Positions 3 through 50,638 of a stretch of DNA of 64,000 nt are shown one piece after another (within the stretch, counting starts at the first letter, position 1; each line of letters begins with the position of its first letter). Under the pieces are notes generated by a model, which did no database searches, had not been told where the DNA came from, and saw only the letters and a list, made by a program, of their open reading frames with translations. Source of the stretch: a bacterium (GTDB lineage: Bacteria > Hydrothermota > Tepidihabitantia > Tepidihabitantales > Tepidihabitantaceae); the NCBI GenBank assembly GCA_035505375.1, contig DATJQV010000042.1, positions 1-64,000 on the forward strand, written 5' to 3'. A program made the translations under genes and the position numbers.

Positions 3-2012
3 TCTGCCGGAGCCGCCTGCTTCTCAAGAACGGGCGGGAGGCGAATCTCAAAGCTGGAGCGCTTCGTCTACCGGCCAGACGAGCTGGAAGGCATGTGGCG
101 GGAGAAGAACCCGGGAATAACTTACGGCACGTCATCTATCCTGACGGCCGCCATCGCAAGACATAGACTCGACGAAGACACGTATCCGCTATTCATGGCG
201 CTGTCTCGCGGGCTGGGTGCTGCTCACACAAACCACAGGATTGGCGGCGGAGATCAGGCGGAGTTCAAGCCGGACGCCGGGGAAGCCGACATAGCCAAGG
301 ACCTTTGTGGAAAGGGCAAGACTGACCCGATCAACGAGTATTCCTCTTCGTTTGACCCGTCGATTCTGACCTACCCCCCTAGACGCCAGCGCGGCAAGTC
401 CGACCTCCTGCTTGACCTCACCGGGGTCGGGTTTGAGTATGTCGCGGCCAAGGCGGTCGAGGTCGTGATGTGGGGCACGGAGAATGCACTACGCCACGCG
501 CCACAGGTCCGTTATGGGAAGTTCTACACCGTAGACCGCGATGAGATTGAACGCATCAATGGCGTGCGCAACCTGATGTTGTCCTACAAGAGGAATCCCA
601 AAGACACAAACCCGCTGGCCATCGCTGTGTTCGGCCTGCCGGGTTCAGGCAAGTCGTTCGCGATAAAACAGTTGGCCCGAGGCATATTCGCCAATGACAG
701 AAAGGCACTCAGCGGCGAGAGAAAGGTGTTCTTCGAGTACAATCTGTCACAGATGGCTGACGTAGGGGAACTGCACCGGGCCTTCCATCAGGTTCGTGAT
801 GCGTCAGTGCAAGGGCAGATTCCAATCGTCATCTGGGACGAGTTCGACTGCCGTGGTCTCGAATGGCTACAGTACTTCCTCGAACCGGTGCAGGATGCGC
901 AGTTTCGTGCCGCCGGCGACGTCCACCCGTTCGGCAAAGCAGTGTTCGTTTTCGCAGGCGGTACATCTCGCTGCTTCGAGGACTTCGATCTCTCGAAGGG
1001 CGGGGAATCCGCCGCCAAGGTCAGGCACTTCAAAGACCAAAAAGGCCCGGACTTCGTCAGCCGCCTCCGCGGGTTTGTCAACATCAAGGGACCCGACAAG
1101 ATCGTGCCTGACCGCAAACGGAAGCGACTGGGAAACAAGTCGAAAGCGGCCACCGACTCTGCGTATATCCTAAGGCGCGCCATCGTCCTGAGGGACAAGC
1201 TTGCCAAGTATCACCCCCAGCTGATCGATACGAAGGGCCGTGCGCTCGTCAGTCCGGGCATAATAAGCGCATTCCTGCGGGTCAAGAACTTCGAGCACGG
1301 AAACAGGTCGATAGACGCTCTGGTCAGTATGAGCTCTGTAGACCAGGAACGGCACTTCGGTCCGGCCCAATTGCCGTCCGAGGACCTGCTGAACCTACAC
1401 GTCAAAGATGGGTTCCTCAAACAAGTGAGAAGATGTGAGTTCAGCGCTGACTCAATCGAAGCCCTTGCCCAAGCATGGCACGAGGCGTGGTGCAAGTGCA
1501 AGAGAGACATGGGCTACACGCCCGGGCCTGACGACGACGAGAAGAAAACCAACCACCTGCTCAAACCGTATGCGGACCTGACCGAGGATGAGAAGGAGGC
1601 CAACCGAACCACGGCGCGCGTCCTGCCTGCAAAACTGTTGGATGTTGGGCTGGAGCTGACCAGAAAGTCCGCGAAGAAACACCTCCGCCTGTTCACGCCC
1701 AGGGAACTCAAGAAGCTGGCACGGCTCGAGCATGATCGGTGGCTGAGGGAGAAACTGGTGAGCGGTTTCACATGGGCCAAAGACACCGAGAGAGAGCTAC
1801 GGCTTCATCGTGACGTAACGCGGTTCAGCAAGGTGCCCAAGCAAGACCAGAAGCTCGATTACGAGACAACCAAGACCCTACCACAGAAGCTGTGGGACTT
1901 AGGCTACGTGTTGGCAAGGAAAAGGAAACGTACCACGAAGGCCGCCCGCACAACACCCAAGAAACGTATCAGAGCGCCAAGGGGCAAGCCTGCCCGCGCC
2001 GCCAACAGATAG
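3..2012 (+). CDS. PfkB-like / AAA-type ATPase / RyR-domain protein, 5' end outside window
   Basis: The frame is open from the left edge. An ATG lies at 93, but the 30 codons before it (including KLERFVYRPDELEG) match the equivalent region of the next gene, so the true start lies upstream of the window. Counting from ATG 93, residues 1-60 look like the end of a PfkB/ribokinase-type fold. A P-loop GLPGSGKS lies at 181-188 and a Walker B-like IVIWDEFD near 244-251. The C-terminus (about 542-612, ARLEHDRWLREK...LGYVLAR) matches the ryanodine-receptor RyR repeat, followed by a Lys/Arg-rich tail. The stop is 3 bases before the next gene, a clear paralogue. No TIR domain is present here. A sensor/ATPase role in conflict signalling is inference. 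Confidence 0.85.
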   Translation, partial: SAGAACFSRTGGRRISKLERFVYRPDELEGMWREKNPGITYGTSSILTAAIARHRLDEDTYPLFMALSRGLGAAHTNHRIGGGDQAEFKPDAGEADIAKDLCGKGKTDPINEYSSSFDPSILTYPPRRQRGKSDLLLDLTGVGFEYVAAKAVEVVMWGTENALRHAPQVRYGKFYTVDRDEIERINGVRNLMLSYKRNPKDTNPLAIAVFGLPGSGKSFAIKQLARGIFANDRKALSGERKVFFEYNLSQMADVGELHRAFHQVRDASVQGQIPIVIWDEFDCRGLEWLQYFLEPVQDAQFRAAGDVHPFGKAVFVFAGGTSRCFEDFDLSKGGESAAKVRHFKDQKGPDFVSRLRGFVNIKGPDKIVPDRKRKRLGNKSKAATDSAYILRRAIVLRDKLAKYHPQLIDTKGRALVSPGIISAFLRVKNFEHGNRSIDALVSMSSVDQERHFGPAQLPSEDLLNLHVKDGFLKQVRRCEFSADSIEALAQAWHEAWCKCKRDMGYTPGPDDDEKKTNHLLKPYADLTEDEKEANRTTARVLPAKLLDVGLELTRKSAKKHLRLFTPRELKKLARLEHDRWLREKLVSGFTWAKDTERELRLHRDVTRFSKVPKQDQKLDYETTKTLPQKLWDLGYVLARKRKRTTKAARTTPKKRIRAPRGKPARAANR

Positions 2013-2015
2013 CCG

Positions 2016-5000
2016 ATGGCATCATTGCGCAAGGTCGGTGATCCTGCAACTGCAGCCGAGAGCACTCGCGGCACCAAGACCGTCGTCGTAGCGGGCGACC
2101 TAGTCTGGAACCACTACATTGTTCAACACGAATCCGCGCTCAGACCTCATCGGGAGACTCCCGCATCCACGGTTGTCCGACAACACTGTGGTGGTGCTTG
2201 GCATACAGCCGAGTTGGTATCGTTAGCCTGTAGCGATCTCAGAGAGGGAATCAGCATGCGGACTGCGCCGCACGACGGCAACTTTCGGCCCGCAGCAGAC
2301 GCCTTGGTCAATGACGCGTACGAAGTGTGCGCGCAGTTCGCCAACGAGTCAGGCAACGCCAGAACAAGGTCCTGGCGGATCCGAGACTTCCTTGGTTGTT
2401 CGCTACCTGAGACGGCAGTTCGGCCACTGGCTGTAGACCAGGACACTCCGAACCCGGACGTGCTGGTCATTGATGACACAAACCTTGGTTTCAATGCGAA
2501 GGAAGACCTCTGGCCGCTTGCGCTGACAGACAAAGGCAACCCGAAGAGCATCGTGTACAAGACGTCGGCATTCCCGCATAGCCTGCTATGGAAGTTGCTA
2601 CTCGGGCGGTTCGCCGACCGGATGACCGTCGTCCTGGCTGTGGAGACGCTACGGTCACAATCCGCCAGGATAGAGTGTGCCAAGTCCTGGGACCAGACCA
2701 TCGAAGACGTGGTCTGCGAGTTCGATCACGGTGCCTGCACCGCAGAGCTTGGTCGTTGCCAACGGGTAATCGTCCACTTCGGTCCGGCTGGTGCCGCCTG
2801 CCTGAGCCGAGTTCCGCTCCACGGAGTACCCATTCAGCCACCAGACAGCACCAACGACGAGACAGGTCTCCGAACTGGCAACGTGAAGCTGGAGCGACTC
2901 ATCTATCGACCCGACGAACTCGAGGGCGCATGGTATGGCCAACACCCGGGTCTGACATACGGTGTTACGCCTCTTGTAGCGGCCGCCATCGCGCGCCACG
3001 AACTCGCACGAGCGACCTACCCGCTGTTCATTGCGGTCTCGCGCGCGCTTGGCGCGGCCCGCAAGGACCACGAGATTGGCGGCGGCTCAGGACCCAGTTT
3101 CGAAGTAAGTGCCTCGATACCGGCTGTCGAGGAAGCCTATCATCCTCGGGCCTCGGTCGAGCGCCGGTTCATTCACACCGACCCTGCAGACGAATACTTC
3201 TCCTCCATCCCGCATGAACTGCTGTCCTGTCCACCTCTCAGAGACCAGCCAGCAAGCGAGTCAGATTTACTGCGCGACCTGACCGGCGCGACCGACGAGT
3301 ACGTTGCGGCCAAGGCCATCGAGGTGGTGATGTGGGGTCCTGAGAGGGCACTCGACGCCGCGCCCAAAGCTAGGTACGGTGACTACCTGACCGTCGACCG
3401 CGATGAAATAGAGCGCATCAACGCTATCCGCAGCCTGGTCCTAGCATACCGCGACAAGAAAGAGGACAAGAAACCACTGTCCATCGCGGTCTTCGGCCCG
3501 CCCGGCTCGGGCAAGTCATTCGCTGTCAGGGAGCTTGCCCGTGAGCTACTCGGTTACAAGCAGCGGGTGCTGGAGTTCAACCTCTCACAGCTCAATACCA
3601 TCGTCGACCTCCACCATGCGCTGCACGAGGTCAGCGATGCAACCGTAAGAAGCGAGATGCCGCTCGTCTTCTGGGATGAGTTCGATGCCACGCTCAACGA
3701 CGAGAAGTTATTCTGGCTTCGACATTTCCTTGAGCCGATGCAGGACGGCAGCTTCCGCTTGGATGGCGTCTCACACCCGTTAGGCAAAGCCATCTTCGTC
3801 TTCGCCGGTGGCACGTGTCACAACTACTAGGAGTTCACCGTCGGCAGCAGAGCGGCGCAACACGATACCAAAGAAGAGGCGAACTTCGTGGTGCGCAAGG
3901 GGCCCGACTTCGTCAGTCGCCTGCGTGGGTACGTCAATATCAAAGGCCCAAACCGAGACGAGGCCGACCCGGACGGCGACGCGGAGTTCCTCATCCGACG
4001 AGCACTGCTTCTCAGGGCACAGCTACAGCGACACCACAAGCACCTTCTGAAGAAGCAGCCGGCCCAGATAAGCCCCGGCGTCATCAGCGCTTTCCTGCGA
4101 GTCGCGAAATACCGCCACGGCGCGCGGTCGCTCGAAGCCATCGTCAGCATGAGCCCGGTGGGCACTGACCGCTTCTACGGTCCAGCCCACATGCCGCCGA
4201 CGCACATCCTTGATATGCACATCGAAGGCAATTTCATGGGATTGGTAGGCAAGGGTGAATCGAGCAGTGACCTGTTGGACAAACTAGCCCGCGTGCTTCA
4301 CGCGGCATACACCGAGTCCACCGGTGCCAGGCCTGGCGATTACGACACGCTCAGCAGCGAGGAGATGGACAACAACCTTGGCGCCGCCAGGCTCACCCGT
4401 GCCAAGCTCCTTGACGTCGGCATCCGTATAGAGCCACGACTTGCCAGCGGGCCCGCGCAGAAGTTCTCTTTCACGGAATCAGAACTAGACCGGCTTGCTA
4501 GAGTCGAGCACGACCGGTGGCTACGTGAGAAACTGCTCAGAGGATTCGCCTATGCCCCAGAGAGCGACAAGAGGCTGAAGCTGAACCTTTGTGCGGTTCC
4601 ATTTGACAGAGTTCCCGCCGAGATGCGGCGAATCGACTACGATATGACCAGGGCGCTACCAGTTGGGCTGTGGGAGCTAGGCTACACGCTCGTGCGGGTG
4701 AAAAGCCTCCGACCTCGCTCCCCGGCCCTCTCCGAGGCGCCCGTCGAGCAGCCATTGGAAACAAACAGAACCCGAACAGTCAAAGCAGCGGCACGCAGCG
4801 CTTTCATTAGCTACCGTAGAGACACGAGCATTGAAGCGGCCCGCCTCATCCGTGAGAGGCTGCGTGGGCTCGGGTATCGAGTCTTCCTTGACGTCGACGA
4901 CCTAGGATCCCACTACTTCGACGAGAGGCTGCTGGCCGCCATAGAGAGGGCCCCCAACTTCATCGTGGTTCTCGTGCCGGGAAGCCTGAACCGCTGCAGC

Positions 5001-5246
5001 GACGCTGAAGATTGGCTGAGGCGAGAAATCGTGCATGCCATCAAGACTGGACGTAACATCGTTCCGGTGCTGAAAGACGGGTTTCGCTTCCCAAGAGCCG
5101 ACGGACTCCCGGCCGACATGCGAGACCTACTGAGGCATAACGGAGTCGTTTACGACCCCGTGTACTTTGATGCTGTACTGAACAAGCTGATTGACTTCCT
5201 GTGCACCGAGGAAGAACTGAAGCAAAGACAATCCAAGGTTCAATGA
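2016..5246 (+). pseudogene. PfkB-like / AAA-type ATPase / RyR / TIR protein interrupted by one in-frame amber codon
   Basis: Paralogue of the preceding gene with a complete N-terminus. Residues about 20-330 resemble a PfkB/ribokinase fold (VVVAGDLVWNHY, VLVIDDTNLG, HFGPAGAACL). The P-loop GPPGSGKS is at 494-501 and Walker B LVFWDEFD near 550. A TAG at 3828-3830 (codon 605) stops the frame, yet the same frame continues without a shift and realigns with the paralogue (FVSRLRGYVNIKGP). After that come a helical region, a RyR domain (about 825-895) and a C-terminal TIR domain (about 928-1062: SAFISYRRD, FLDVDD, IVVLVPGSL, EDWLRREI). The upstream paralogue also ends in TAG, so amber is an ordinary stop here. 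A recent nonsense mutation or base error is likeliest; readthrough is possible but unsupported. Confidence 0.85.
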
Positions 5247-5602: not shown

Positions 5603-6691
5603 CTATTTTGCCGGAACGTCGAGTGGAATCGCTGCGAGGCAAGGAAAGTGGTCGGAGTCCTCGATTCTATGCTCAACAAGGCCACGCTCAACGGCCTGCT
5701 GTGCGATGACGGGGTTGAACGAAATGAACTTCGGCCCGGCGAAGATATAGTCAAGCGTTGTCGTGGCCACAGACCCGACGCCGCGCGACTTTGTACCGCC
5801 GTGCTTGTCCGGTATGGCATCCAGGAAGTTCATCCTTCCAATCCACTCATACTCCTCTGATGACTCGGTGAAATTGAAGTCGCCCACCAGTATCCACACT
5901 GGATTACACCTGTTGAGAGTCTCGTGACGTTCGGGCCGGCGTTTCTTCCCACGGTCCGTGAATCCCTCGCGCGCCCATGTGTTGTACCTCGAAACGATGC
6001 CGTCGAAGACAACTCTGAGTTGCGCCAGTCGGATCTGGGACGCTCTTACGTCGATTTCGGGTATGCCCTCCCGTTCCATAGTTAGTGTCGTGAGGTGAAG
6101 ATTGACGACAAACACGTCCAGCGGCTTGCCCCCGCAGCCGGTTGAGTCAAGGATGAAGTGCGCGACTAGCGCCGCCCGCGGTTCGGTGTCACGTGTCCCG
6201 AAGTACAGCCCAGACTGCAAATCGACCTGCTCGATGTAATGGCGTGGGCGTTCTGGGCCGTCTGCCCTCCTTGGCCACCGCCCGGGTCTTGATAGATCCC
6301 ACACTGGGCAATGAGGCGTGTCGTTCCTGACTAGGAAGGCGTTGCCCTGTGCGAAATACGTCCCCTTGCGCCAGCCGCCGAGTTTCTGGACCTTGTTCCA
6401 TTTTCCCTTTGATGACAGTCGGTCGCTGTCTATCAGGGGAAAAGGGTAGTAGTTGTATCTAGGAAACAACTTCGTGTCTATGAGATCCACCAGCTCCATG
6501 CCAGGTTCTCTGTACTGCACTATCTCCTGTAGTGCGATCACGTGCGGAAGGCCATGGTGGCCTCGTTCCTCGCTATGTATTAGACTCTGGAGATCCTGAT
6601 TCAGATGGCGACGCACGTCGTCACGATCGTCGGCCTTCTCCAGATACCGTGCTCCACCGATGTTCCAGTCGATAATCGAGAACCTGTTCAT
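5603..6691 (-). CDS. Endonuclease/exonuclease/phosphatase (EEP) superfamily protein
   Basis: A 362-residue metal-dependent phosphoesterase of the DNase I-like/EEP fold. The catalytic set is visible: N-terminal IIDWNIGG with Asn10, IALQEIVQ with Glu56, VVNLHLTT, GDFNFTE with Asp271/Asn273, and a C-terminal DSDHFP with Asp347/His348. Substrate cannot be read from sequence; nucleic acids, inositol phosphates and other phosphodiesters are all possible. The start is ATG 6691-6689. It shares one base with the TGA of the upstream GHMP kinase (TGATG), so the two are translationally coupled. The frame extends further upstream, but only as overlap with the kinase gene. No signal peptide is seen, so it is probably cytoplasmic. 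Confidence 0.85.
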   Translation of the reverse strand: MNRFSIIDWNIGGARYLEKADDRDDVRRHLNQDLQSLIHSEERGHHGLPHVIALQEIVQYREPGMELVDLIDTKLFPRYNYYPFPLIDSDRLSSKGKWNKVQKLGGWRKGTYFAQGNAFLVRNDTPHCPVWDLSRPGRWPRRADGPERPRHYIEQVDLQSGLYFGTRDTEPRAALVAHFILDSTGCGGKPLDVFVVNLHLTTLTMEREGIPEIDVRASQIRLAQLRVVFDGIVSRYNTWAREGFTDRGKKRRPERHETLNRCNPVWILVGDFNFTESSEEYEWIGRMNFLDAIPDKHGGTKSRGVGSVATTTLDYIFAGPKFISFNPVIAQQAVERGLVEHRIEDSDHFPCLAAIPLDVPAK

Positions 6692-7848
6692 CAAGCCTCC
6701 GTCTGAAGCGGCAGATTCACTAGCTCGTGCCCCTTCCGTCTTATCTTGAACCTGATGCTGTGGAAATGGCCATTCGTGACTAGGTCTTTCTGAGCGTCGT
6801 CCAAACATTTTGTCTCCTTTCCGAAGACAAGCACGCCTCCACCTCCACCAGCCCCCAGGGGGAACCCCGTACAGCCGTGATGCTCGGCGCACCCCACGAT
6901 CTGGGTCGAGCCCTCCATGTAGGCGGGACAGATCCGGGTGCGCACGCTCCGATAGCGAGTAATGGCATCGTGCACCTGATCCCAATCCCGCCTTCTGATG
7001 CCTTCCCTGTATTGATAGGCTATCTCAAGTTTCGTTCGGTGATGCGCATACCCGTCTGATGTGGCAAGTGCCTTCCGCCATTCGCTGTTCACCGACGAAC
7101 TGGCTCTCTCTTTCCCGGAGTGGAATACGACCATCCTCTGCTCGAGATCCTCGTAGAACTCCGGAGGCAGCAGTTCAAACCGGAGCGACTCGCCGTAGCC
7201 GCCCTCCCGCCACCCCGGAATCCCCCAAGGGAACCAGACGTAGTCCCGTACGCCACCAAAGACCACGTTGGATTGCTCTTGGGTCCCTGTGATGCTCACG
7301 CCCAGATCCTGCTCGAGCAATGACGCCATCGCCACGAGCTGCGCATCGGAGAATGGTCGCCCTGCGAGCTCGTTCGCCAGGATGCAAACACCGGTAGCGG
7401 CCGTGGCGGAACCGCCAAGCCCGGCGGAGTGGGTGCCAGCGTGCAAATTGTGCAGGTCGAACATCACGCCAGACAATCCGAACAGGTCCACGATCTTGAG
7501 CAACCAGTTGCCCTTGGTAGGAGGAATCGCGCCGGGCTCTCCGTCGGTTTCTTCTGCCAAGTACTCAGCCGAACGGACACCAATTCTGCCTGGCCCCTCA
7601 GGATGCGGCTTTGCGTCGACGCGGGTACCGGTGCTTATTGTGATACCGACGGTCCTCGGCAGGTTCTTGCTCCAAGTGGCCGCTGGATCCTCCCTCAGAT
7701 TACGCGGTATGAAAGGAAGCCTCCAGAAGGCCTCTTGGAACTCACGCAGATCCAAACTCGAGCCGGGGCCGTCGATCCGGTTGTACGCGACCACGCCCGG
7801 AAGCGCATTGCGTCTTGATGCCTCGGACAGCCGTTCAAATAGCGACAT
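6691..7848 (-). CDS. GHMP-family small-molecule kinase
   Basis: A 385-residue GHMP-fold kinase. The glycine/serine-rich ATP loop SAGLGGSATAATG is at 141-153, preceded by a GTH motif. A C-terminal glycine-rich stretch (GAGGGGGVLVFG) matches the third GHMP motif. In the wider family these enzymes phosphorylate sugars, heptose 7-phosphate, mevalonate or homoserine. The closest feel is the heptose-kinase/galactokinase-like group, but the substrate is not identifiable. The ATG at 7848 follows a GGAGG ribosome-binding site; codons upstream of it look non-coding. It ends in a one-base overlap with the EEP gene. Pairing a kinase with a phosphoesterase suggests opposing or sequential steps on one metabolite; that is inference. 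Confidence 0.8.
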   Translation of the reverse strand: MSLFERLSEASRRNALPGVVAYNRIDGPGSSLDLREFQEAFWRLPFIPRNLREDPAATWSKNLPRTVGITISTGTRVDAKPHPEGPGRIGVRSAEYLAEETDGEPGAIPPTKGNWLLKIVDLFGLSGVMFDLHNLHAGTHSAGLGGSATAATGVCILANELAGRPFSDAQLVAMASLLEQDLGVSITGTQEQSNVVFGGVRDYVWFPWGIPGWREGGYGESLRFELLPPEFYEDLEQRMVVFHSGKERASSSVNSEWRKALATSDGYAHHRTKLEIAYQYREGIRRRDWDQVHDAITRYRSVRTRICPAYMEGSTQIVGCAEHHGCTGFPLGAGGGGGVLVFGKETKCLDDAQKDLVTNGHFHSIRFKIRRKGHELVNLPLQTEA

Positions 7849-8077
7849 GATTCCTCCAGTGGGATGCAGAGCGGCCGCCGGAGTTGTCCACCGAGTGGCC
7901 GTACCCGGTCTGGAGTCCGACTGCCACCTGCCCCGGTCCAAATGTATGTCAAATGCAGTCCGGAGTCAAGTCCGCGGCCCTCGGTGGGCAACCCACACCG
8001 AAGTGACGGGAGCAAGTTCCTGGTTGACTAGCCTTGGACATTGGATAGCCTTACAGCATAGCCACTGTGCAGAATCC

Positions 8078-9328
8078 ATGACTACCATCGACGTCTTTGT
8101 CAGTCATGCTAGCGAAGATTCCAGTACTGCCATACAGCTAGCTTCGCACCTTGAGAGCAGCGGCTATCGCACATGGTACTATGAGCGGGACGCGGTCGCC
8201 GGAGTATCCCCACTGCTGCAGATCAGATGGGCAATCATCAACTGTCACGTGGTCGTGGTAGTCGTTTCGCCGAGCACGGTTCGCTCCCACTACGTTGTAA
8301 GAGAAGTCGTCCGGGCTATGGAGTTGGGCAAGGATTTCATCCCGTTCCTTGTTGGTTTGACTCGTAACGATTTGGATCAGCGGCAGGAACTGGTATATGA
8401 GGCCTTGGTACTGGCAACAGCAATCGAAGTTGAGCCCTCGAACGCCGCATCTGCCTTCCCGAAGGTGCTTGGCGGCCTAGCGCTGCTCAACATCCTGCCG
8501 GCTACTGGCGGCAGCACACGTCCAGTTGGCCAACCACACGCAATCACGCCGATCGGTCCTCCCTCGAACCAAGCACCCGTAGAAACTGGTCCGAAACACA
8601 CCAAGGCCCAACCTCCACGGCATACCAGCGTCAAAGGGGACGGGTCTTCGAGGGCGGCCACGAGGAACCGACACGAGAGCATCTCGGACCTCCGTGCACG
8701 CGAAAGGTCATGCCGAGAGAACGGCAACATCCATGAACTGAAGCACGTGCTCATCGATCTGGCGCGAGCGCTCCGAGAGAGAGGCGATGCAGAGCGCGCA
8801 TTGCCTCACCTAGAAGAAGCCGAGCGTCACTCTCGAGACACGGAGGATGGGGCCAGTCTGTCGGCATCTCTGAGTGAGCAGGCCTCAGCCTATGTCGACC
8901 TCGACGTCGTACCCGCAGCGATGTCGAAACTGAAGGAGCACCAAAGGGTATGCTTGGAACTTGGAATCGACAGTGCGCTGCAGTGGAACCTCGGCATGCA
9001 GGGTCTCCTCTTCCATGACCACGGTGATTTGTACCGAGCCTGGGAGTACTACGCTCGGCAGGAACGAATCTGCCGCGTCATGGGCGACCACCGCGGATTG
9101 ACAGTGTCCCTAGTGAGCCGGGCGGTCTTGCTTGCTGAGTCTGCCAATCGACTTGAGGACGCGGTCCGTCTTGCTCAAGAGGCCAGAACCGAGGTCGCTC
9201 AGCACAGACTCAGCGACGTTGCGGATTGGGTTGAGGAGGTTCTAGCATCAGTCGCTACCGTCCAAACAAGCGAACGCATGAGTCCCATGTGCCGACCGCC
9301 TATTGTCGACGATGCTCCCGTAGACTGA
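8078..9328 (+). CDS. TIR domain protein with TPR-like C-terminus
   Basis: A 416-residue protein starting at ATG 8078 (MTTIDVFVSHASED). Residues 1-130 form a TIR domain: DVFVSHAS strand, WYYERD, VVVVVVSPS, then a helix with SHYVVREVVRAME, where the glutamate sits at the expected NADase position. A Pro/Thr-rich linker (about 150-205) leads to an all-helical region (about 210-405) with TPR-like pairs such as ALPHLEEAERHSRDT and DLYRAWEYYARQERIC. TIR-TPR proteins are common in bacterial immunity and signalling, with repeats for sensing and TIR as effector. It is divergent from the kinase/nuclease pair across a 229-base gap. The assigned start removes a long upstream frame that is antisense to the kinase. 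Confidence 0.85.
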   Translation: MTTIDVFVSHASEDSSTAIQLASHLESSGYRTWYYERDAVAGVSPLLQIRWAIINCHVVVVVVSPSTVRSHYVVREVVRAMELGKDFIPFLVGLTRNDLDQRQELVYEALVLATAIEVEPSNAASAFPKVLGGLALLNILPATGGSTRPVGQPHAITPIGPPSNQAPVETGPKHTKAQPPRHTSVKGDGSSRAATRNRHESISDLRARERSCRENGNIHELKHVLIDLARALRERGDAERALPHLEEAERHSRDTEDGASLSASLSEQASAYVDLDVVPAAMSKLKEHQRVCLELGIDSALQWNLGMQGLLFHDHGDLYRAWEYYARQERICRVMGDHRGLTVSLVSRAVLLAESANRLEDAVRLAQEARTEVAQHRLSDVADWVEEVLASVATVQTSERMSPMCRPPIVDDAPVD

Positions 9329-49157: not shown

Positions 49158-49506
49158 GGGGGCGATTGGCTTCGACGGAGTGCCTGAGGAGCCAGAGTGC
49201 ATGGCGAGGTTCCTCGGTTACCTCGTAAATCCCGACCGGGGAAACACAGCTGCCAATAACAGCTACGCACTGGCTGCCTAACTAATGGAGCCCCTTGACC
49301 CGCGAGCTCACCCGGCGCGAAGTCAGGGTATATAAGGGTGATCTGGGTTCCGGTTGTGTCTCAGGGCCGGAATCCGAGAATCGCTGGGGCTGGGTTCACC
49401 GCGCCTGTCGGTCGGCTAACGGTGCGCCGAGAAATATCGACTGACTAACCATGTAGTTCGCTGGCGCCGAACTCTTCGGACGCGGGTTCAATTCCCGCCG
49501 CCTCCA
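49158..49506 (+). ncRNA. ssrA: Transfer-messenger RNA
   Basis: The 5' end GGGGGCGATTGGCTTCGACGG and the 3' end (T-arm GGTTCAATTCC, acceptor CGCCTCC plus discriminator A) are the conserved tmRNA termini and pair over seven bases. The tag frame reads ANNSYALAA then TAA (near 49253-49282), possibly with one more Ala first, and the LAA degradation end is standard. CCA is not encoded (the DNA continues TGT), so it must be added. A single-piece tmRNA of about 349 bases. It rescues stalled ribosomes with SmpB; smpB is not in the window. Confidence 0.95.
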
Positions 49507-49591: not shown

Positions 49592-50533
49592 CTATTCGAG
49601 CGAGATCACGCCGTAGGCTTCGTCGATAGCCCGCTTGATGCCTTCGAAGGTGAAGGACATGGCGGCCGTGGGGCCGACTTCGGCCAGTGCGTCCGGCACG
49701 ATGCTTTCACGGTTTGTTCGGACCACCATCATCCGCTTGTCCATCGCGATGGCCGTCTTTATCTCCCACGCCACCCATTCGTTGGTGGCAGTGTTGTCGC
49801 CCACGACACAGAGGAATCCGGTCGCCGACTTTATCTTGCCGATAATCTGGTTCTTGAGCGACGTTGCCGCTTCGCTCTCCAGCGGCATGGCCGGGCGCTG
49901 GTCGTTGACAACGACGTGCGCGAAGTCGGGCATCTTCGCCCAGGTTTGCAGTATGTCCCGGTAGTAGCCGTCTTTGTCGTAGTCGTAGCTGACAAAGAGC
50001 ACCTTGCCGCGGGGTTTCTCTTCTGCGGGCTTCGGGCGCATTGCCGGGCGCGGCCTGGCGAAGCTCGTGGCCGACGGCGCTTCCGGTCTCGGGCTGGGGC
50101 GCTGTTGAATGACTGCCTTCAGGTCTTCGTAGGCCTGATCCCAGCCGCGGCCGTGAAAATCGATGTACGGCTGGGATACCATGTCCGGCGGCAACGCGGA
50201 GCCGTCAACCCTCGCCGGGAGCACCCTGACGCGGCGGCCCCTGATGTCTCTGATCGAAACTGCGCCCAGTTCCTGTTTGACCCATCGCCAGGAGAGCGAA
50301 GAAGCGGAAATGAGCGGTATGACGAAGTCCACGGGTCGGACCGATTGGGCCAGCCGGTTGACGAGCAGTGCTCCCGCCGACATGTCGATCTCGTCGACCC
50401 ATGGACTAATCCCATCCCGGCGCAAGGCGCCCGACAGCTTGCGGGCGAACCGGTGGTCTGCGTAGTTGAACGGAATAACGACATGGGGCTCGGCAGCGGC
50501 CGGCCGTACGATGCCCGCAGGATCAGCGTTCAT
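49592..50533 (-). CDS. Double TIR protein: TIR plus ThsB-like (MTH538/DUF1863) domain
   Basis: A 313-residue protein from ATG 50533 (MNADPAGIV). Residues about 15-130 form a TIR domain (HVVIPFNYADHRFARKLSGAL, PWVDEIDMSAG, DFVIPLISASSL, WRWVKQEL). After a Pro-rich linker, about 180-300 is a second Rossmann-like unit (KVLFVSYDYDKDGYYRDILQTW, GFLCVVGDNTATNEWVAWEI, RMMVVRTN) of the TIR-like MTH538/ThsB family. In Thoeris defence, ThsB makes a cyclic-ADP-ribose-type signal for a separate effector; no ThsA-like gene is adjacent. It faces the tmRNA gene, a common integration point. Confidence 0.78.
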   Translation of the reverse strand: MNADPAGIVRPAAAEPHVVIPFNYADHRFARKLSGALRRDGISPWVDEIDMSAGALLVNRLAQSVRPVDFVIPLISASSLSWRWVKQELGAVSIRDIRGRRVRVLPARVDGSALPPDMVSQPYIDFHGRGWDQAYEDLKAVIQQRPSPRPEAPSATSFARPRPAMRPKPAEEKPRGKVLFVSYDYDKDGYYRDILQTWAKMPDFAHVVVNDQRPAMPLESEAATSLKNQIIGKIKSATGFLCVVGDNTATNEWVAWEIKTAIAMDKRMMVVRTNRESIVPDALAEVGPTAAMSFTFEGIKRAIDEAYGVISLE

Positions 50534-50638
50534 CGGGACCCCGGTGCGGCCACTGCCTCTGGTCGCCCGGCTCGTGCCGGGTACCTTTGCCAATAGTCCG
50601 GCGCATTTGTCCACATGGTAGCAGACGGGATTCCCATG

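Follow-up and report, generated by a model that had tools for sequence, protein, structure and literature searches.

Two paralogous PfkB-AAA-RyR genes at a contig edge

The window, meaning the whole stretch of 64,000 nucleotides that we analysed, starts at base 1 of contig C42 in a draft genome of 3.62 Mb (90 contigs, 98% complete). Gene 1 is therefore truncated at its 5′ end, and most of its PfkB domain lies outside the window. The features of this gene and its neighbours are listed below, those on a second contig, C46, with the coordinates of locus L029.

L029:16423-17772 (C46): channel-like protein, 449 amino acids, membrane part followed by TrkA_N
L029:17688-18083 (C46): stand-alone RyR protein, 131 amino acids (PF02026, 127 bits)
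L029:18080-18812 (C46): N-terminal 244 amino acids of gene 1
3-2012, + strand: gene 1, PfkB (C-terminal third)-AAA-RyRx2, 669 amino acids in the window, 5′ end open
627-851, + strand: AAA P-loop ATPase core of gene 1, Walker A GLPGSGKS, Walker B IWDEFD
1419-1922, + strand: tandem RyR repeats R1 and R2 of gene 1
2016-5246, + strand: gene 2, PfkB-AAA-RyRx2-TIR, 1076 amino acids, one in-frame TAG
2055-3215, + strand: ribokinase/PfkB-fold N-terminal domain of gene 2 (modelled segment), lacking the catalytic Asp of the kinase family
3489-3704, + strand: AAA core of gene 2, Walker A GPPGSGKS, Walker B FWDEFD
3828-3830, + strand: in-frame amber codon (codon 605) within the AAA domain of gene 2
4455-4697, + strand: second RyR repeat of gene 2, signature HWND
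4773-5243, + strand: SARM1-type TIR domain of gene 2, catalytic Glu in DWLRREIVHA

The initial annotation had described two neighbouring paralogues, and this was borne out: both open reading frames are present, and gene 1 including its C46 part aligns with gene 2 at 42% identity over 949 columns (E 0). In the tree the two are sisters (95/92 support) within a five-row clade that also holds L004, L005 and L046, and they hence derive from a duplication within the lineage of the present genome. Pfam detected RyR in both proteins (E 2.9e-17 in gene 1, 3.4e-6 in gene 2), AAA in gene 2 (E 3.4e-7) and weakly in gene 1 (0.0078), and TIR_2 in gene 2 only (E 2e-10), as had been claimed for the TIR domain. 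The predicted C-terminal RyR domain thus exists in both genes, as a tandem pair and not as a single domain. The P-loop ATPase with a DEFD Walker B was likewise confirmed, P-loop and WDEFD being invariant in 15 aligned homologues. Neither the PfkB part nor the middle region nor the architecture as a whole could be assigned to a family by Pfam, PADLOC or NCBIfam.

The proposed PfkB/ribokinase-like N-terminus was found by structure, though Pfam failed to detect PfkB in every member scanned and a profile of the N-terminus gave nothing better than E 0.5 against PDB sequences. An AlphaFold2 model of the gene 2 segment (pLDDT 83, pTM 0.87) was submitted to Foldseek, and all 50 PDB matches listed belonged to the ribokinase/PfkB family (best E 4.7e-9). 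The position aligned to the kinase catalytic Asp of the GAGD anion-hole motif, a column placed by sequence context and not by structural superposition, is occupied by another residue in 15 of 15 members. Since this residue is missing throughout, we read the domain as a ligand-binding pseudokinase.

Apart from the TAG at 3828-3830, gene 2 shows no further disruption. Reassignment of TAG was ruled out, as gene 1 itself terminates with this codon. TAG is thus an ordinary stop here, and gene 2 is interrupted as assembled.

A four-gene operon that probably spans two contigs

We use gene A for the PfkB-AAA protein, which usually carries two RyR repeats. A profile built from 15 homologues recovered gene A sequence at three places of the genome: gene 2, the remainder of gene 1 (profile columns 251-879, in the window) and the missing front of gene 1 (columns 8-241, at the end of C46). 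The ends of C42 and C46 share no sequence overlap. Because the two halves are complementary and no further copy was found in the genome, we take the contigs to be adjacent, with an inferred gap of about ten codons.

Read from C46 into C42, the order is channel, stand-alone RyR, PfkB-AAA-RyR2 (gene 1) and PfkB-AAA-RyR2-TIR (gene 2), all on one strand. On C46 the channel, RyR and gene 1 have overlapping ends, gene 1 starting at L029:18080 with a 4-bp overlap with the stand-alone RyR, and gene 2 begins three bases past the end of gene 1. Our best explanation is that genes 1 and 2, in the window, are the last two of four genes in an immune-type operon. A scheme of sensor, ATPase and TIR effector, put forward from the window's own genes, has no place for the RCK channel with RyR that lies upstream on C46 and is probably the membrane effector.

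A SARM1-type TIR domain in gene 2

When the gene 2 TIR domain was searched against PDB sequences, 19 of 19 matches at E <= 0.01 were SARM1/TIR-1 (best E 9e-30). It aligns with human SARM1 at 107 bits with the catalytic Glu in register, and we class it as SARM1-type since its sequence is closest to the SARM1 TIR and the Glu lies within the DW..(K/R)EIV.A motif. The likeness to the SARM1/TIR-1 NAD+ hydrolases covers the TIR sequence and this Glu. In contrast to those enzymes, gene 2 has no ARM or SAM domains, and oligomerization and regulation would come from its AAA and PfkB-like domains. Among the gene A homologues examined, no fused TIR was found outside the present genome.

The window holds further TIR genes. 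Downstream of gene 2, at a distance of 2.8 kb, a second TIR protein is encoded at 7268-9328 (+ strand), in which the TIR (8093-8374) precedes weak TPR repeats; a nuclease/phosphatase-like gene (5603-6985, - strand) and a GHMP-kinase gene (6691-7941, - strand) separate the two. A third TIR (50120-50482, 66.7 bits) belongs to an open reading frame at 49592-50614 (- strand) directly beside a tmRNA gene (49158-49506, + strand). The ends of tmRNA genes are frequent integration sites.

RyR domains retain ligand residues of a phage cADPR-binding protein

RyR domains of phages bind 2′ and 3′cADPR or cleave them; in phage RyDEP the RyR fold cleaves cADPR by means of H75 and D117, whereas none of eight assayed phage homologues cleaved and six bound (PMC13232231). 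We defined an RyR signature as the residues aligned to RyDEP H75, W78, H100 and D117. The stand-alone RyR, R2 of gene 1 and the TIR-linked channels all carry HWHD. R2 of gene 2 is one residue short (HWND), the phosphate-contacting His being replaced by Asn. First repeats are mostly degenerate at these positions: R1 of gene 1 reads HWNN, and R1 of gene 2 is degenerate and could be detected only through its alignment to gene 1. Equivalents of H75 and D117 are kept in both second repeats and in the stand-alone RyR, and the RyR domains could destroy a signal instead of sensing it.

The likeness to the RyR Repeat12 domains, phage RyDEP included, thus consists of the PF02026 fold and the H, W, H and D ligand residues, and the top scores of the stand-alone RyR among solved chains were to animal RyR repeats. 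RyDEP is a counter-defence protein, whereas the RyR domains described here are cellular, lie in an immune-type operon and are fused to a channel or an ATPase. In a Bacteroidota gene A clade (L070-L087), Arg, Tyr or Gln takes the place of the catalytic Asp of R2 in the members L078-L085; repeats of this kind perhaps only bind their ligand or have a different role.

An RCK channel-like protein without a K+ filter motif

In members of the channel family, a short pore-like helix sits between two transmembrane helices, and RCK/TrkA_N-type domains follow. A family profile matched MthK over pore and RCK in the PDB (E 7e-8), and also TrkA/GsuK and animal RyR. Foldseek matched a model of the L005 homologue, of moderate quality (pLDDT 73), to GsuK, Slo1 and MthK, as well as to the structure of RyR3 Repeat12 with dantrolene and ADP. 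The two-transmembrane pore-like part and the RCK/TrkA_N-type domains are shared with the RCK-gated channels GsuK, MthK and Slo1. Unlike these, the protein has no TVGYG-like filter, and an RyR domain is found at its C-terminus or in the neighbouring gene. The K+ selectivity-filter motif was absent from an alignment of 19 family members, and ion conduction is therefore not assured.

Gene A is sparse and patchy

Homologues of gene A were found in Planctomycetota, Effluviviacota, Calditrichota, Bacteroidota, Actinomycetota, Acidobacteriota, Thermomicrobiota, Bacillota and Fibrobacterota, and on plasmids of Methylobacterium and Streptomyces. The distribution is sparse, patchy and low in every phylum sampled. 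Counting the genome at the centre of each sample, gene A occurs in 1 of 147 genomes of its own phylum (the present genome alone), 6 of 343 in the phylum of L012, 2 of 396 in the phylum of L008 and 22 of 395 in Bacteroidota (the phylum of L007). Carriage by phages was ruled out for gene A, as 2.9 million viral contigs yielded one clear relative and one RyR-only match; the channel had no match in 50,697 phage records.

Most of the 22 Bacteroidota positives form a clade in which gene A stands mostly alone, in conserved and ordinary-looking synteny. In the 395 genomes of that phylum the channel occurs five times and together with gene A once, against 0.3 expected by chance, which is no association beyond chance, and these counts rule out an obligate co-occurrence of the two genes. 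One plasmid copy (L032:11839-14682, Methylobacterium) lies near a 2082-amino-acid SIR2-family protein and transposases.

Conflict-type neighbours and TIR-channel pairs

Linkage of gene A to defence-type genes was seen in about 14 loci from many phyla; in most of the Bacteroidota clade it is unlinked. Gene A adjoins an RyR-RCK channel in L005, L006, L007, L009, L034 and the present genome, and a SLOG-SLATT membrane protein in L047, L048 and L077. In L046 its neighbour is a RelA/SpoT-LSDAT-RyR protein. In L012 it is flanked by a DRHyd-like gene on one side and two TIR genes on the other, and TIR is also close by in L047, L051 and L086; in L013 a SLOG-like domain replaces its RyR. Relatives of the window in two genomes (G004, G008) combine the channel with RyR, Nudix-type, RelA/SpoT-LSDAT-RyR and TIR genes and have no gene A. 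The earlier suggestion of an immune or signalling function gains support from the SARM1-type TIR and its Glu and from conflict-type neighbours in several phyla. Homologues mainly in housekeeping contexts would have counted against it, and this was seen in part only, in the Bacteroidota clade with gene A mostly alone in ordinary-looking surroundings.

Four Bacteroidota genomes possess the RyR-RCK channel but lack gene A, and in all four a TIR protein is encoded right next to the channel. The two genes overlap by 11 bp in L093 and are separated by 4 bp in L094, 22 bp in L095 and 23 bp in L096; L093 and L095 were counted as one lineage because they have flanking genes in common. TIR genes are few in the three of these genomes that were checked (two in G514, one in G717, three in G503). 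Assuming about one gene per kb, we estimate the chance of a TIR gene as direct neighbour in all three lineages at ~1e-9, a figure calculated post hoc on data already seen, for a partner that the window had suggested.

Other arrangements recur around these genes. On conjugative plasmids from Sinorhizobium meliloti and S. medicae (L097:2632-7214, L098:2638-7223), the gene for an RCK channel whose RyR is weak comes after a DUF4062-NB-ARC-TPR gene, which it overlaps by 4 bp. In several loci an RCK channel, a stand-alone RyR or gene A has as its neighbour a protein of 860-1010 amino acids, composed of RelA/SpoT, a repeat region, LSDAT (TRPM-type SLOG) and RyR, which might supply this channel with messenger from a second source. 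Its copies are:

L030:8620-11652: RelA/SpoT-LSDAT-RyR protein
L031:1947-4931: RelA/SpoT-LSDAT-RyR protein
L046:5193-7787: RelA/SpoT-LSDAT-RyR protein
L038:2158-4938: RelA/SpoT-LSDAT-RyR protein
L112:514-3111: RelA/SpoT-LSDAT-RyR protein

In L010 and L016, gene A has an RtcR/sigma-54-type AAA protein and a gene for an HSP90-like ATPase in its vicinity; a similar case is L035, where an HSP90-like ATPase open reading frame is near the channel and a SLOG gene.

Relation to known systems

Thoeris, in which the TIR protein ThsB acts with ThsA or another effector, is similar in placing a TIR protein beside an effector with a nucleotide-sensing domain and, presumably, in using an ADPR-derived messenger. 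A TIR with catalytic Glu beside a dedicated effector was found both here (gene 2 with channel and RyR) and in the Bacteroidota TIR-channel pairs. The sensor differs, being SLOG or Macro in Thoeris and RyR here, the effector here is an RCK channel, and the PfkB-AAA hub is additional. We found no ThsA-type (SIR2-SLOG) or other named Thoeris effector; in PADLOC and NCBIfam the TIR part gave weak matches far below the cut-off, and PADLOC matched no system as a whole.

Burroughs et al. 2015 reportedly describe nucleotide-centric conflict systems built from SLOG, SLATT and TIR, and may mention prokaryotic RyR. The likeness to those systems lies in the modules that surround the genes described here: SLOG/LSDAT, SLATT, TIR and RelA/SpoT. 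To our knowledge neither a PfkB-AAA-RyR hub nor a pair of TIR and RyR-RCK channel is a named system there. Our literature search, which extended to sources other than that work, found neither of the two and no bacterial RyR channel system. No named system was found with the composition channel, RyR, PfkB-AAA-RyR2 and PfkB-AAA-RyR2-TIR. RyR is unmentioned in PMC7159879 and PMC9503650.

Discussion

The operon joins a SARM1-like TIR, RyR domains and a channel-like protein, and therefore probably serves as an alarm against viruses, with a membrane channel that is opened by a nucleotide derived from NAD. Given the published RyR biochemistry and the gene order, the simplest scheme is that the TIR makes an ADPR messenger, RyR reads it and the RCK channel acts. 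We accordingly favour a Thoeris-like immune system with a NAD-derived messenger and an RyR-gated RCK channel as effector, a reading that we hold tentatively, at slightly under an even chance; its signal, binding and gating are predictions from homology and linkage. It is supported by the four-gene operon order, the SARM1-type TIR, the homology of the channel, the TIR-channel pairs, the plasmid linkage in Sinorhizobium, the HWHD signatures and the patchy distribution of gene A. Against it stand the amber codon, the missing phosphate-contacting His in R2 of gene 2, the lack of a filter motif in the channel, the want of a PADLOC match to a whole system, the chance-level co-occurrence of gene A and channel in the Bacteroidota sample, and the Bacteroidota copies of gene A, most of which have no channel or TIR neighbour.

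In this Thoeris-like scheme the PfkB-fold domain, devoid of the kinase catalytic Asp, would bind a small ligand or an invader cue. The AAA domain, with its nucleotide-binding motifs in place, would then assemble or switch on ATP. The assembly would gather SARM1-type TIR domains, whose homology and catalytic Glu suggest conversion of NAD+ to ADPR or cyclic ADPR. RyR domains, which conserve the RyDEP residues for 2′/3′cADPR, may bind this messenger and, as their linkage to the two-transmembrane RCK channel suggests, could thereby gate it. The predicted outcome is a loss of ion balance, with growth stop or death before the invader replicates. The RyR copies on genes 1 and 2 might serve in feedback on the signal or its removal.

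In the main rival to the messenger scheme, RyR clears away the signal, and the TIR kills through loss of NAD+. Activated gene 2 would be the executioner, depleting NAD+ as do SARM1 and TIR-NLRs, RyR would be an off-switch or self-protection that binds or hydrolyses ADPR products, and the channel a parallel effector with a separate trigger. SARM1, the closest TIR, does work via NAD+ loss (PMC10715442), and the cleaving residues of RyDEP persist in three RyR domains of the operon. However, this explanation leaves unaccounted for both the RyR domains fused to or beside RCK channels in many phyla and the minimal TIR-channel gene pair, and binding without cleavage prevailed among the assayed RyDEP homologues. 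We judge it unlikely.

Somewhat less probable again is an ion-homeostasis module with no immune role, in which the cell's state of NAD(H), ADPR or adenine nucleotides is read by RCK and RyR, with the PfkB-AAA protein acting as metabolic sensor or chaperone. RCK/TrkA proteins of known channels do bind NAD, ADP and ATP (GsuK-NAD and TrkA-ATPgammaS structures), and the ordinary synteny of the solitary Bacteroidota copies fits such a role. It is at odds with the low and patchy occurrence of gene A in every phylum sampled, with channel copies on conjugative plasmids and with the free exchange of conflict-type partners (TIR, SLOG-SLATT, RelA/SpoT-LSDAT, DRHyd-like and DUF4062-NB-ARC).

That gene 2 is a decaying pseudogene, its TIR fusion a recent failed experiment and the living system channel, RyR and gene 1, would fit the usual stop codon in its AAA domain and a fusion seen in no other homologue examined, but we consider it improbable: more than 470 codons follow the TAG without stop or frameshift, the TIR and RyR domains still match their families, TIR is linked elsewhere as a separate gene, and a consensus error is possible in a 90-contig draft.

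Returning to the messenger scheme, its fullest form is that bacteria possess a complete antiviral pathway from NAD+ through cyclic ADPR and an RyR domain to an ion channel, in which TIR makes the messenger, the RyR-bearing RCK channel is both receptor and effector, and a pseudokinase-AAA hub exerts control in the present genome. We regard this as possible, if on the doubtful side. We know of no function for RyR domains in bacteria outside phages, and whether cADPR acts directly on ryanodine receptors is a long-standing, unsettled question. Both matters become directly testable with the minimal TIR and RyR-RCK pair of three Bacteroidota lineages and the DUF4062-NB-ARC variant on plasmids of the cultivable S. 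meliloti. If the pathway is real, a messenger-gated channel would join the known effectors of TIR immunity, the phage RyDEP proteins would gain a plausible cellular ancestor, and the animal cADPR-ryanodine receptor axis would have a prokaryotic counterpart and perhaps its source.
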